This document shows, in pieces, positions 1 to 7,083 of a stretch of 7,552 nt of DNA. The translations under genes were made by a program, and so were the position numbers. A model generated the notes under the pieces. It saw only the letters and a program-made list of their open reading frames with translations, was not told where the DNA came from and did no database searches. This DNA comes from Halobacteriales archaeon QH_10_65_19 (GTDB lineage Archaea > Halobacteriota > Halobacteria > Halobacteriales > Haloarculaceae): positions 1 through 7,552 of the forward strand of contig PXQK01000155.1 of NCBI GenBank assembly GCA_003022085.1, given 5' to 3'. Every line of letters starts with the position of its first letter. Position 1 is the first letter of the stretch.

Positions 1-135
1 CATCAGGCGATCCATCATCCTCGATGACCGTCGACCTGTCTCCGAGGTCGTCATCAGGCGATCCATCGTCCTCGATGACCGTCGACCTGTCTCCGAGGTC
101 GTCATCAGGCGACCCATCGTCTTCGATGACTGTCC
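1..135 (-). repeat. 51-bp in-frame tandem repeat (about 2.6 copies, continuing off the left edge)
   Basis: Copies lie at 1-51 and 52-102 and differ at one base (a versus g at the 17th position). A third, diverged and partial copy spans 103 to about 135. On the coding (minus) strand each unit encodes the 17 residues TVIEDDGSPDDDLGDRS at the C-terminal side of the HEAT-repeat membrane protein. The unit length is a multiple of three, so copy number can change without breaking the frame. Near identity of the outer copies suggests recent expansion. The array may be longer than seen because it reaches the window boundary. Confidence 0.9.
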
Positions 136-3100
136 CCTGTTTTTCGACGCCAGCAGTCGACGGGGAAGCATCCGCACCGCTGTCAGTCGTATCCTCCGCC
201 GGGTGATCCGCATCGGCCAGTTCCTCCTCGTCGAACTCCTCGTCGAACGAGGGATCGAAGTCGTCGCCGACCGGTTCGAACACGTTCGTGTCCCCGGAGA
301 CGCCCATCTCGTCGGCGGACTCGGGGGTCCAGATTTCCTCCCTCTCGGTGGGTGCGCTCTCGACGTCGGTCGCCGCAACGCCGGTCTGGATAGCGGTCGA
401 CGCGTCCTGGAGGCGCTCGGGGTCGACGTCGACGGCAGGGTCGCGCTGGAGACGCCGGAGGCGATCGGACGTCTCCGCGGCTGGTTCGACAATTTCGGGC
501 TCCCTGTCGGCAACGGTCGCAATCAGCCGCGCGGCGTGCTTCCTGACGACCGAGGAGTCGTCGTCGAGGCGCCCGATGATCCGGTGGATGTCGTCCTCGA
601 TCGCGGCGGGGACCGCCGCACAGACGTTTCGCAGCGCGACCAGCGCGGAGGAGCGCACCCGCGGGCTGTCGTCGTCGGTCGCGACCACGAGGCGGTCGAC
701 GAACGGTACGACGGCGTCGGGGTGATATGCCGCGACGTCAGCGTCGACTGTTCGGCGGTCGTCGCGAGCGCGACCAGCGGGTCGATCAGGGGTTCGCCGC
801 GGCCCGGGTCCAGCGCGACGGCGTCGGCGACGATGTCGACCGTCACCGCGCTGACTGTCCCGCCCCTGACCATGAACGGCACCGAGCGGGCGTCGACCGG
901 CGTCCGGTTCTGCAACCCGGCCGCCAGCGCCGGAAGTATCTCGACACCCGCTTCCGGGGACGCGTCGACGACCTCCGCGAGCGTGACGGCCGCCAGCACG
1001 CCACGCCGGCCCTCCGCGTCGAGGTTGGCGGCCAGCCCCTCGACGAACTCCTCGGCGGCCCCGTCCACATCCTCGACGATCGCGACGACGGCCTCGAGAC
1101 AGGCGAGGCGCACATCGGAACTGTCGTGTGTCAGCCCTCGCCGGATCGCCGCCCTGACCGACTCCCGTCGGGCGATACTTCGCGAGCCCGCGACGAGGGA
1201 GGAGAGCAGCTCCGCCGCCGGCTGTGCCACCAGCGGCCCGGCGTCGCCGACGTAGGCGGCGACCGTCGAGGAGGCGGTCGGGTGGCTGATCAACCGGTCG
1301 GCGTCCATTGTGGACAGCGCCCGGAGGACGGCGGCCTCCGGCCGGCCGGGGGCGTCCTGGTTCTCTTCGAGGTGCAACACCAGCCGGTCGCGAAGCGCAT
1401 CGCCCCGGTCCGGGCCGAACCTGAGCAGCGCCGCGATCGCTTCTGCACCCATCCACCGGACAGCGGGGGACTCGTCCTCGAGAAGCGCGGCCAGCCGGTC
1501 AGTCTCAATCCGGTCGGTGTGCCGGTCCAGTGACGACCTGACCACGTGGGCCGCCAGGTACCGGGTACCGGCGTTCCCGCTGTCGAGGTGGTCGAGAGCA
1601 ACGGCGACGCGCGTCCCGTCGGCGTCCGCGCGCTCGCCAGTGACGGCGAGGGCAGCCGTCAACCCGTCTCCCTGGCTTCCGCCCCCCGACAGCCTGAGCA
1701 GGTGTCCCAGGACGTTCTGGAGAGCGGGCTCTCTTGGGTCTCTGCTCTCCACCTGGACGCCGGTGTACCACAGCGTTGCGAAGTACTCCACAACAGCGTC
1801 ACGGACCATCCGGTCCTGGGGGTTGTCCTCGGCGGTACCGGCGAGTTCGTCGACGTGCTGCTCCGCCAGCCGATCGGACGGGACCGTCCGGCTCGTGGAG
1901 AGTTCGAGTGTATAGATCCGCGCGGCCGATTCGGCCGCGAGTATCCGCGTGCGACCGTCCTCGCTGTCGAGATACCCGACAACCCGTTCCGGCGTCCCGG
2001 CCTCGACCAGCCGGTCGTACGTCCCTGGTGGCTGGCTGTAGCTGAGCGCTGTTGCGAGTCCCCGTACCCCCGAGCGGACGACGGCCCGGTCGTCGCTCCT
2101 GAGCGCGTCGCTGAACACGTCGAGTGCGTCGTCCTGCCTGTACGCCGAGGCCTGCACGGAGCTCGCCAATCCGTCGACAGCGGCCGCACGGAGGCTGTTG
2201 TCACGGGCGTCGCTGTGGACGAACAGCCGGTCGGTCGTCGCCTCGTCGAACGCGTCCCAGTCGGCCTCGATTCGATCGACGTACGCGGAGATGTTCCTGA
2301 TCTCGTACTGGCCGCCCAGCCGGTTGCCGGCGTAGGCTGCCGGGATCCCAGCCACTGGATAGCTCAGTAGCAGCGTCGGAACGCCCGCGTCCGCCGGAAC
2401 GACCGGCCCGAGGGCGACCAGCCCGGCTGCTCCGACCCCGAGGCCGACGACGACTGCGTCGACGTGCCGGGCGACCCACTCCGATGCGGCCTCGACCCCT
2501 GTCGTCGTTCGGGCCAGCACGTTGGCGCCGACCAGCACCGACAACACGACCGCAGCGAGCAGCCGCCGCTCCCCGAGCGGCTCGGTGCCGATCGTCGCGG
2601 CGATCCCGATCGCGTACAGCAGGTATACCGCGACCGGCACCACGACGTTCAGCTGGTGGGAGCGCCGCGACGGGGAGAGGAGACCGCGGTACCCCAGCAC
2701 CTCGGGCACGGTCGCGTCGGGGTACTTCCACCGCTGGACCGCCAGATACGAGCCGACGACGACCGCCGTCGTCCCGATGCTGCCGACCAGCACCGGCTCG
2801 AAGGCGTCGCCCAGCACGACCCCGAACGCGGGTGCCAGATCGGGGGAGAGATCCAACTGTGCCGCCGTCTGCTCGACGACGGGCTGCCAGATGTCGTAGA
2901 TCGGACCGGCGTTGAGCACCGCGATCCAGAGCAGGACGACCGGCAGCCGCGCGAGGCCGTCCCAGAGCGTCGCGCGGACCGCTGCCGCGTCGGTGTTGAC
3001 GCCGACGAGCAGCCGCTTGCGGAACTGCAGGCCGACGTAGGACGCAGCTACGACTGGGATCAGGACGACGACCCAGGCCAGCAGGAGCGTCGGCTCCTCT

Positions 3101-3606: not shown

Positions 3607-4419
3607 TTACCTGAAGAGGCCGCCGAAGATGCCGGAGTCCTCCTCCTCGTCAGCTCCGGCCTCCTCGTCAGGTACAAACCACTCCTCGTCGAAGACGCGG
3701 TCCAGGTCCGTACCGGATACCCCTTCGAAGAACACGGGGCGGAGGGAGGCAGTCAACTGCCGGTAGGCATCCGCCGCGACGCTGTCGGGAGCGTTGACGA
3801 CCAGCGGCTCGTTGTCCGCCGCGTCAACGTCTGCGGGGACGACGCCAAGTAGCGGAGACTCCAGCTGGTCGGCAATCGCAGGCACGTCGGTGTCCCGGGT
3901 GGCACGGGTGACAAGCGTCCCAATGACCGTCCCGTCGACGCGGTCAGCGAGTTCGGCGGTCTTCACCGTGTCACCCACCGCGACCTCGTCGGGCGTCGTG
4001 ACGAGGAGCACGCCGTCGGCCAGCCCGAGCGGGACCGCCGTCTCGTGGCTGAGGCCCGCTCCGGTGTCGACCAGGACGAGGTCGTAGGTTTCGCGCAGTG
4101 TCGTCAGCACCGTCCGGAGTTCCGCGGGGTCGGCCTCCGCGAACGCCTCGAGGCTCTGCTCGCCGGGGAGGGCCGTGATCCCGCCGTCCGCGTCTGTCAC
4201 CGCGGCTTTGACTGTCGAGTTGCCCGCGAGAACGTCGTGAATGCTCTCGTCGTACTCCACGCCGAGCATCTCCCCCAGGTTCGCCATCCCGAGGTCAGCG
4301 TCGACGATGACGGCGTCGTACTCGCCTGCCTCCTGAAGAACAGCCGCAGTGTTGATCGCTGTTGTGGTCTTGCCGACACCACCCTTTCCGCCCGCAATCG
4401 TACAGACGTACCCCGACAT
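3607..4419 (-). CDS. minD: MinD/ParA-family P-loop ATPase (archaeal MinD-like)
   Basis: A 270-residue deviant Walker A ATPase. Motifs: GGKGGVGKTT at residues 10-19, the switch/Walker A' stretch VIVDADLGMANL at 36-47, and Walker B LVLVDTGAG at 113-121. Such proteins dimerise on ATP and typically bind membranes or partners to position cellular structures. The C-terminus is an acidic linker ending in GIFGGLFR, which resembles a short membrane-targeting tail. I chose the ATG at 4419 because the TATA box at 4451-4460 predicts transcription from about 4430. Upstream ATGs at 4437 and 4464 would lie outside that message, and the family core begins right after this Met. The gene diverges from prf1 and is followed by the HEAT-repeat membrane protein gene. 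No MinE-like gene is in the window. Haloarchaea carry several MinD paralogues, and I cannot say which one this is. Confidence 0.9.
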   Translation of the reverse strand: MSGYVCTIAGGKGGVGKTTTAINTAAVLQEAGEYDAVIVDADLGMANLGEMLGVEYDESIHDVLAGNSTVKAAVTDADGGITALPGEQSLEAFAEADPAELRTVLTTLRETYDLVLVDTGAGLSHETAVPLGLADGVLLVTTPDEVAVGDTVKTAELADRVDGTVIGTLVTRATRDTDVPAIADQLESPLLGVVPADVDAADNEPLVVNAPDSVAADAYRQLTASLRPVFFEGVSGTDLDRVFDEEWFVPDEEAGADEEEDSGIFGGLFR

Positions 4420-4569
4420 TTTTCGAATACGTAGCATCAAAACGTGGCGGCAATATAAACCCATCTGTCCGCACCTCCGGGGAGTTCTGGCGGCACCGCC
4501 TTTTCGTGTCGCGCCAGCAGCCGGCGGAGGTCAACAGGTACTTACACTACTCTCGACAACTACGGGGTA
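4420..4569. promoter_or_regulatory. Divergent promoter region between minD and prf1
   Basis: These 150 bp separate two divergent genes. The minD side has a clear TATA box (4451-4460). The prf1 side has only a weak TATA-like CTTACA around 4541-4546, about 26 nt before the prf1 ATG, which would fit a leaderless transcript. A GC-rich hairpin followed by TTTT (4489-4504) lies between them, with no assigned role. No small ORF here looks coding. Confidence 0.5.
4451..4460 (-). promoter_or_regulatory. TATA box of the minD-like gene
   Basis: On the minus strand the sequence is GTTTATATTG, a good haloarchaeal TATA box. Its centre is about 37 nt before the chosen ATG (4419). With usual archaeal spacing the transcript would start roughly 10 nt before the ATG, giving a very short leader. 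No Shine-Dalgarno is visible there, which fits. Confidence 0.6.
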
Positions 4570-5772
4570 ATGAGTGAGACCGATCAGGAGCAAAGCGACA
4601 GACAACGATACGAGTTCCGGAAGGTTATCGAGGAACTGAAGGATTACCGGGGCTCGGGGGATGTCGTCGCTCACGTCACAGAGGAACACTCCGAGGCCAG
4701 CAACATCAAATCCAAGGACACGCGGACGAACGTCCAGGACGCACTGAAAAGCATCAAGGACCGGCTGAAGTACTACGACACGACGCCGCCGGAAAACGGA
4801 ATGGTGCTGTTCTCGGGTGCCGTCGATTCGGGCGGCGGGCGCACCGAAATGATCACCCGGGTGCTGGAGAACCCGCCACAGCCGATCCAGTCGTTCCGGT
4901 ACCACTGCGACGCGGAGTTTCTCACCGAACCCTTAGAGGAGATGCTCACTGACAAGGGCCTCTTTGGCCTGATCGTGCTCGACCGGCGCGAGGCCAACGT
5001 CGGCTGGCTGCGCGGCAAGCGCGTCGATCCGGTCAAGTCCGCGACGTCGCTGGTCCCCGGGAAGCAGCGCAAAGGCGGTCAGTCCGCCCAGCGGTTCGCC
5101 CGTCTCCGCCTCGAAGCCATCGACAACTTCTACCAGGAGGTTGCCGGGATGGCAAACGACCTGTTCGTCCCCGAGCGCCACGAGATGGACGGGGTTCTCG
5201 TCGGCGGCCCCTCCCCCACAAAAGACGAGTTTCTCGACGGCGACTACCTCCACCACGAGCTCCGGGATATGGTACTCGGGAAGTTCGACGTCGCCTACAC
5301 CGACGAGTCGGGGCTGTACGACCTGGTCGACGAGGCCAGCGAAGTGCTCGCCGAGCGAGAGATCCTCCAGGACAAGGAGGTGATGGAGGAGTTCTTTCGG
5401 GAGCTCCACGACGGCGAGAAGGCAACCTACGGGTTCGAGCCGACCTACGAGAACCTCGTCATGGGGTCGGTCGACCGCCTGCTGATCAGCGAGGACCTCC
5501 GGAAGGACGTCGTCGTCTACGAGTGCAGCGGAGGCCACGAGGAACGCGAATTCATCGACGCCGGGGAGGCGGCCCCCGAACACACCTGCTCGCGCTGTGG
5601 CGAAACCGGCAAGAAGGGCGAGCGCGAGGACGCAATCGACTACCTCATGGAGCTCGCCGATCAGCGGGGTACCGAGACCGTCTTCGTCTCGACGGACTTC
5701 GAGAAGGGCGAACAGCTGCTGACCGCGTTCGGCGGCGTCGCCGGCCTGTTGCGGTACTCGACCGGCGTGTGA
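4570..5772 (+). CDS. prf1: Peptide chain release factor aRF1, with an apparent 15-residue internal gap
   Basis: aRF1 recognises all three stop codons in the ribosomal A site and triggers peptide release. The N domain carries NIKS (residues 45-48) and YHCDAEF (111-117, the YxCxxxF motif), both used in stop-codon reading. The middle domain has GGQ at 169-171 within PGKQRKGGQSAQRFARLR. The C domain has Cys319, Cys340 and Cys343, likely part of a zinc-binding minidomain, and the chain ends in RYSTGV as haloarchaeal aRF1 does. The length is 400 residues, where haloarchaeal homologues are about 415. The difference sits after GSG (28-30): from memory, relatives continue with something like TQLVTIYIPPDKQIS before DVVAHV, and here that block, including the GTS-type loop, is absent. 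The reading frame is otherwise intact. The start MSETDQEQSD fits the family, and no strong Shine-Dalgarno precedes it. nurA follows after 48 bp. Confidence 0.95.
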   Translation: MSETDQEQSDRQRYEFRKVIEELKDYRGSGDVVAHVTEEHSEASNIKSKDTRTNVQDALKSIKDRLKYYDTTPPENGMVLFSGAVDSGGGRTEMITRVLENPPQPIQSFRYHCDAEFLTEPLEEMLTDKGLFGLIVLDRREANVGWLRGKRVDPVKSATSLVPGKQRKGGQSAQRFARLRLEAIDNFYQEVAGMANDLFVPERHEMDGVLVGGPSPTKDEFLDGDYLHHELRDMVLGKFDVAYTDESGLYDLVDEASEVLAEREILQDKEVMEEFFRELHDGEKATYGFEPTYENLVMGSVDRLLISEDLRKDVVVYECSGGHEEREFIDAGEAAPEHTCSRCGETGKKGEREDAIDYLMELADQRGTETVFVSTDFEKGEQLLTAFGGVAGLLRYSTGV

Positions 5773-5804
5773 TTTGCAGGGAGCCATACAGTTTTGTGCG
5801 CGGC

Positions 5805-5809
5805 GGAGG
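5805..5809 (+). promoter_or_regulatory. Shine-Dalgarno of nurA (decides the start)
   Basis: GGAGG lies 11 nt before the ATG at 5821 and inside the coding part of the longer TTG-initiated reading frame (5794). It supports the ATG start and suggests nurA is translated from a leadered message, probably shared with prf1. Confidence 0.6.
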
Positions 5810-5820
5810 AACTCCGGGAC

Positions 5821-7083
5821 ATGACACTTGACCCCGTCCACGTGGACGGCATCGCGGAGCTCGCGGGCCGGGTCACGGAACGCGTCGACGACAGCGACCA
5901 CGCAGAACTCGCCGACCGGGCGTGGACGGAGTTTCTGGATCCGCTTTACGACGACTCGGGGGAGAAGGTGCTCGAACCGCTCGGCGGGCACCGGCGCCGG
6001 AAGGTCCCCATCGACGACGTCGCCCTCGAATCGCGGCCGTTCCCGACACAGCACGGGCTGGACGCGGGCACGATCAACCCGACGACGTTCAAAAACGGGC
6101 TCGTTCTGGACGTCTCGCAGGCGGCGATGGCGTCGGTGCCCTCTAGCGTCGAACTGCACCGTGCACGGACAATCGTGATGACGGTCCACACGAACGACGA
6201 GACGCTCGATGTCCACGACGTGGACTGGCGGCTGGACGACGAGGGATACGCCCGGCGGCGGATCCTGCACGCCCCGCGGGTCGACCGGCACGAGCAGGCG
6301 GTCGTCCACGCCCTCGCGCTCTACCGCGCCGAGAGCGAGCACGCCCTCAAGCAGGTAGAGATTGTCGACGATCTCCTCGTCCTCGACGGGCCAATCTATC
6401 CGACAGGCCTACTGAGGTGGGTCGAGCGCGACCCACAGCTCAAGCGGCTCATTATCGAGGAGTCAGAGTTCGTCGAGGTGATCCACAACTACCTGGCGCT
6501 CGTGGAATCGTTCGTCGAGCACGGCGTGCCGATCGTCGGGTTTGTCAAAAACAGCGCCTCGAAGGCAGTCACGCGCGAACTCCGCCGGAAGACCGGCGCG
6601 CCCTGGGTCGACGACGAGGCGTTCTTCCGCCGCGTCCTCGAACGGCCCGACGAGCACGGCGACCCCCGAACCGACGCGCTGACGTTCACCGGCTGGTTCC
6701 GCTCCCGGGTCGGGACCGACGGTATGCTCGCCGACGGGACCATCTCGCTCGACAGGGACGCCAGCCTGGATGAACGCGACTACGAGGTCACCTTCCTCAT
6801 CATCTACGACCCGCGTGACGACCTCGTGTACCGTGTCGAAGCGCCGTACGCCTTCACGCGCGATCCAGACCTCCGGTCGCAGCTGACCACGCACCTCCTC
6901 TCTGAGGTCGCCGCCGAGCGCGGGCCGCCGCTCGCGGTCGGCAAGGCTGACGAACTCGCACGGATCGACCGCCAGGGGAAACGGACGCTCCGGCGACGGA
7001 TCGAACGCGAGTTCGAAACCAGCCGGCAGGAGAGCTACAACGACAGACGGTGGGGGGCGGCCGAGGGGCTGGACCTGGTGTGA
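5821..7083 (+). CDS. nurA: NurA-family nuclease (DNA end processing)
   Basis: A 420-residue haloarchaeal NurA-domain protein. NurA is a Mn-dependent nuclease that works with the HerA hexameric translocase, and with Mre11-Rad50, to resect DNA double-strand breaks. Visible family features are INPTTFKNGLVLDVSQAAM (Asp97, expected first metal ligand), YRAESEHAL (Glu171), LLVLDGPIYP (Asp189), a conserved GFVKN (240-244) and YRVEAPYAFTRDP near 337-349. The catalytic assignments are by analogy with studied NurA proteins and are not proven here. The ATG start MTLDPVHVDG matches how I remember haloarchaeal homologues, and GGAGG precedes it. It follows prf1 by 48 bp on the same strand with only a weak possible promoter between, so co-transcription is likely. 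herA is not in the window. The reading frame is complete and ends in TGA. Confidence 0.88.
   Translation: MTLDPVHVDGIAELAGRVTERVDDSDHAELADRAWTEFLDPLYDDSGEKVLEPLGGHRRRKVPIDDVALESRPFPTQHGLDAGTINPTTFKNGLVLDVSQAAMASVPSSVELHRARTIVMTVHTNDETLDVHDVDWRLDDEGYARRRILHAPRVDRHEQAVVHALALYRAESEHALKQVEIVDDLLVLDGPIYPTGLLRWVERDPQLKRLIIEESEFVEVIHNYLALVESFVEHGVPIVGFVKNSASKAVTRELRRKTGAPWVDDEAFFRRVLERPDEHGDPRTDALTFTGWFRSRVGTDGMLADGTISLDRDASLDERDYEVTFLIIYDPRDDLVYRVEAPYAFTRDPDLRSQLTTHLLSEVAAERGPPLAVGKADELARIDRQGKRTLRRRIEREFETSRQESYNDRRWGAAEGLDLV

Follow-up and report, generated by a model that had tools for sequence, protein, structure and literature searches.

The prf1 gene of this locus encodes an archaeal peptide chain release factor (aRF1) that is 15 residues shorter than expected, and the missing residues belong to the part of the protein that reads stop codons. 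The question raised is whether the shortening is a property of the release factor, the mark of a spare gene copy, or a fault of the sequence itself. The evidence set out below favors the last of these: with a probability of about three in four, the 45-nucleotide gap is a defect of this one sequence and not a property of the release factor of the species. The window, defined here as the whole stretch of 7,552 nucleotides that was analyzed, looks like the DNA of an uncultured haloarchaeon, and its closest prf1 loci are L001, L002, and L003.

Gene Content of the Window and Identity of prf1

The features of the window are listed in Table 1. Against the aRF1 equivalog family (cut-off 234.7), the prf1 product reaches 484.5 bits, which places it within aRF1, and all three eRF1 domains are matched. 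The gene has no internal stop. The YxCxxxF-like region is intact, as are the two motifs listed in the table. Both of these motifs, NIKS (for which the role is taken from PMC11277123) and GGQ, are common to the window protein and to canonical haloarchaeal aRF1 (solved structure 4af1; TIGR03676). The 4af1 protein aligns with the window protein over its full length, with the exception of a 15-residue gap where the N domain of the window protein lacks sequence.

Table 1. Features of the window, with positions counted from its first nucleotide.
Feature	Position	Strand	Remark or basis
HEAT-repeat gene, open frame of 981 aa	523..3468	-	final part out of frame behind the 136-nt loss
HEAT-repeat gene, continuation in the other frame up to the window start within a 51-bp tandem repeat	1..736	-	
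HEAT-repeat gene join, 136 nt absent, exact base not fixed	732..748	-	comparison with P0121; DNA alignment to L119
MinD/ParA-like ATPase gene, divergent neighbor of prf1	3607..4464	-	
prf1, aRF1 of 400 aa, N domain short by 15 residues	4570..5772	+	TIGR03676
prf1 join, 45 nt (15 codons) absent	4659..4660	+	DNA alignment, protein comparison
NIKS motif, residues 45-48, intact	4702..4713	+	
GGQ motif, residues 169-171, intact	5074..5082	+	
nurA-like nuclease gene	5824..7083	+	PF09376

The 45-Nucleotide Gap in prf1

The sequence-only reading held that about 15 residues (45 nucleotides, in frame) are missing between GSG and DVVAHV. This is confirmed by the translation, by the DNA of relatives, and by the nearest allele. 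In the window, the translation runs ...ELKDYRGSG directly into DVVAHVTEEHSEASNIKS..., so that GSG is joined straight to DVVAHV. The nearest allele, P0001, is a complete protein of 415 residues (source listed as jgi; seven member sequences, two contigs) and contains TQLVTIYVPPDRLIS at this place. Outside the gap, 398 of the 400 residues of the window protein are identical to P0001. DNA alignment to the three closest relatives shows one gap only, 45 nucleotides long, at about base 88-90 of prf1. The loss is exactly in frame, for which the chance is one in three.

The alignment with related haloarchaeal aRF1 proteins that had been proposed was run, and among the sequences compared the 15-residue gap is confined to the window. 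GSG and NIKS are offset by 17 residues in the window versus 32 residues in 108 of 110 prf1 loci. In the remaining two loci (L042 and L044), the segment is present on direct reading.

Alignment to human eRF1 (1dt9) places the lost residues at positions 32-46, a stretch that takes in the first N-domain strand and two residues of the GTS loop (T and S). The proposal that the missing part corresponds to a core strand and the GTS loop of eRF1 therefore holds. Among 35 complete aligned proteins, no variation occurs at eight of the 15 lost positions. The N-domain profile PF03463 (cut-off 23.8 bits) matches P0001 from profile position 2 with 69.8 bits, and the window protein only from position 28 with 45.8 bits. 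The window prf1 does not encode a complete N domain with a GTx loop and first strand.

Conservation of the Segment among Relatives

All 154 of the aRF1 proteins retrieved contain the segment; they comprise the best 120 of 2224 matches and 34 new proteins among the best 120 of the 936 matches to a junction search. The segment is likewise present in all 110 prf1 loci (100 distinct sequences), as counted with a wider motif. Relatives that naturally lack the segment, which the sequence-only reading had named as a possible refutation, were thus not found in either set, and neither set holds a naturally shortened aRF1 lineage.

The junction search used residues 9-60 of the window protein as the query, which would favor an ungapped match. 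P0001 was ranked first among the 944 candidates although its alignment needs a gap, and all of the best 120 matches keep the segment. Clustering of the protein database at 90% identity means that these counts are of representatives and that a rare deletion-bearing allele could hide within the seven-member cluster of P0001.

At the DNA level, 387 of the 391 genomes sampled from the class contain a pattern for the segment when as many as two mismatches are allowed; a few of these matches could fall outside prf1, since the match position is not listed for many genomes. The same pattern read backward, used as a control, matched approximately 6 of the 391 genomes (counted by eye). The four genomes without the pattern are G030, G140, G215, and G375. 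G215 and G375 have no aRF1 match at E 1e-30. In G030 and G140, the best aRF1 match is of a divergent kind only (E about 1e-72), and the canonical segment is not matched; these two genomes may be incomplete or may truly have lost it.

No aRF1 lacking this segment is reported in the titles and abstract openings of the literature searched. The window sequence has no match in the plasmid collection by blastn and no relative among the viral contigs.

A Second Loss in the HEAT-Repeat Gene

The sequence-only reading described the rest of the gene as healthy. This description stands for prf1 itself; it does not extend to the window, where the HEAT-repeat gene carries a frame-shifting loss that the earlier reading did not mention. 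The open frame of this gene ends in residues unlike the protein, and another frame carries the protein on to the start of the window. Protein P0121, with a length of 1235 residues, matches both parts, and its residues 911-956 (46 residues) are absent from the window. Three of 910 residues differ before the break and five of 245 differ after it. P0121 is listed without a source or name and may not be independent of this record. The net loss is 136 nucleotides (46 residues minus two bases), and the same 136 nucleotides are missing in comparison with the DNA of a relative (G003; alignment to L119).

A 51-bp tandem repeat lies at the edge of the window (positions 1-134); its product is an acidic repeat close to the end of the HEAT protein. 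A start inside a tandem repeat would be a common stopping place for an assembly.

The two losses are approximately 3.9 kb apart. The prf1 loss does not stand alone as one neat change within a sound contig, and the HEAT-gene loss is a further unexplained loss in the same contig, as expected for an artefact. Three options had been offered for prf1, namely a functional variant, a strain with a second prf1, and an artefact. The 136-nucleotide loss tips the balance to a defective sequence, and the functional variant finds little support.

Neighborhood of prf1

A minD homologue is present in 80 of the 110 prf1 loci. The MinD/ParA-like gene of the window differs from L002 by small gaps only in the DNA alignment, and the nurA-like gene aligns with L111 over 1260 nucleotides without an insertion or deletion.

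The nurA-like gene lies directly 3’ of prf1 in the window, behind a spacer at positions 5773-5823. None of the 110 loci has nurA after prf1 within the flanks covered, which are approximately 6 kb for most of L001-L080 and approximately 1.5 kb for L081-L110. L106 has a partial nurA match on the minD side. In G005 and G007, prf1 and nurA are approximately 86-90 kb apart and in opposite orientation. The adjacency of prf1 and nurA is as likely to be a lineage-specific gene order as a chimeric join. It was not counted toward an artefact because the break falls in the spacer and both genes are whole.

Joins and Origin of the Losses

With the DNA of relatives as a proxy for the complete alleles, either join shows only 0-2 bases of shared homology, and there is no collapsible repeat at the joins. 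This argues against a repeat-driven assembly collapse or short-read graph error. A deletion at the level of reads or library, or a real deletion, remains. The joins are probably present in some molecule or read.

The most likely source of the gap is a deletion introduced while a thinly covered contig was being sequenced or assembled, or while its library was prepared, and we infer that both losses arose in the production of the data rather than in a cell. The sequence is considered defective on the basis of the 45- and 136-nucleotide losses taken together with few amino-acid differences and with complete, near-identical proteins for both genes. Against an artefact, the prf1 loss keeps the frame exactly; prf1, minD, and nurA are also otherwise intact, and the sequence is not generally poor.

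It is unlikely that a real deletion very recently inactivated the gene in one strain or in a minor part of the population. The window would then carry a dead or dying allele, or a decaying duplicate whose complete prf1 counterpart lies elsewhere. The scant homology, if any, at the joins would fit joins that exist in real molecules, and damage in two neighboring genes would suit a decaying duplicate. The few amino-acid differences from the complete proteins and the lack of a stop within prf1 speak against decay, as does the lack of a full second aRF1 in the genus of the closest relatives (next section). Two sizeable deletions within 7.5 kb with so few substitutions also seem improbable.

Second aRF1 Copies

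A strain with a second, complete prf1, in which the first copy is free to vary, is very improbable. In its favor, about 68 of 391 genomes of the class (counted by eye) have more than one aRF1-like match. The copy that was read among these is in G005, where a divergent second aRF1-like protein (L132; G005:C2:136000-138200) lies on a 316-kb contig that is not the contig of the main prf1. It is 43% identical to P0001, has a shorter C-terminal part, and contains NIKS and GGQ as does the window protein. Unlike the window protein, it keeps its own loop-strand segment (GTE...PP), which argues against this reading.

Closer to the window, the genus of the closest relatives is represented by 18 genomes, and 16 of these have an aRF1 match at E 1e-30. 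None of the 18 has a full second aRF1 at this threshold, which weighs against a spare copy. Several of these genomes have partial matches only and may be incomplete. G399 and G400 have partial aRF1 matches, and in G401 two contigs each match a different part of the protein. One genome of this genus, G008, could be taken in favor of a spare copy. In addition to a full prf1 on C207, it shows, at a looser limit, a further match of 55 residues at the end of a contig (G008:C50:19-183; 82% identical to P0001, E 1.3e-23). This fragment could derive from a second copy, from a strain variant, or from contamination.

Predicted Effect on the Release Factor

In two sources, the GTS loop of eRF1 is placed at residues 31-33. 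It is described as helping to read the second and third bases of the stop codon in one (PMC11277123) and is tied to stop-codon recognition in the other (PMC4698671). PMC11277123 also describes human eRF1 isoform 2, in which the first 33 residues are absent through alternative splicing. This isoform still binds the ribosome, recognizes codons and promotes release less well, and is said to be unipotent to UGA. It shows that some activity can persist in a release factor that has no GTS loop.

Isoform 2 and the window protein both lack a part of the N domain that includes the GTS loop. The window protein has an internal cut of residues 32-46 (human numbering), which keeps the N-terminal helix and removes the first strand. 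Going by residue numbers, isoform 2 retains most of this strand.

Structure models were predicted with AlphaFold from alignments matched in depth (36 and 35 rows). Both models are of low confidence overall (mean pLDDT 41.9 and 53.2), and for this reason only the contrast within the N domain is used. In P0001, residues 11-120 have pLDDT values of about 53-77, with strands at 32-38, 93-103, and 106-115, of which strand 32-38 is the first strand of the N domain. In the window protein, residues 11-110 have values of about 24-48. This contrast hints that the loss would break the N domain. If made, the 400-residue protein, which would have neither the first strand nor the T and S of the GTS loop, should be misfolded or a poor reader of stop codons.

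A working release factor that lacks both the GTS loop and the first strand, with other or partial stop-codon reading comparable to human isoform 2, is highly doubtful: the intact NIKS, YxCxxxF-like, and GGQ regions, the kept frame, and the ribosome binding reported for isoform 2 in PMC11277123 would suit it, but the segment is present in every homologue examined, the complete and near-identical P0001 exists, the second deletion shifts the frame of the neighboring gene, and the strand that is lost here is mostly kept in isoform 2 by the numbering given there. It is correspondingly hard to credit that a living haloarchaeal strain relies on only NIKS and the YxCxxxF-like region to read its stops, perhaps with a narrowed choice of codons.

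Were the shortened factor nevertheless real, neither the GTS loop nor a core N-domain strand would be indispensable for reading stop codons in archaea. As a probable defect of the sequence, the gap illustrates that a loss which keeps the reading frame of a presumably essential gene can be mistaken for a variant, and that a frame-shifting loss in a neighboring gene exposes the defect.
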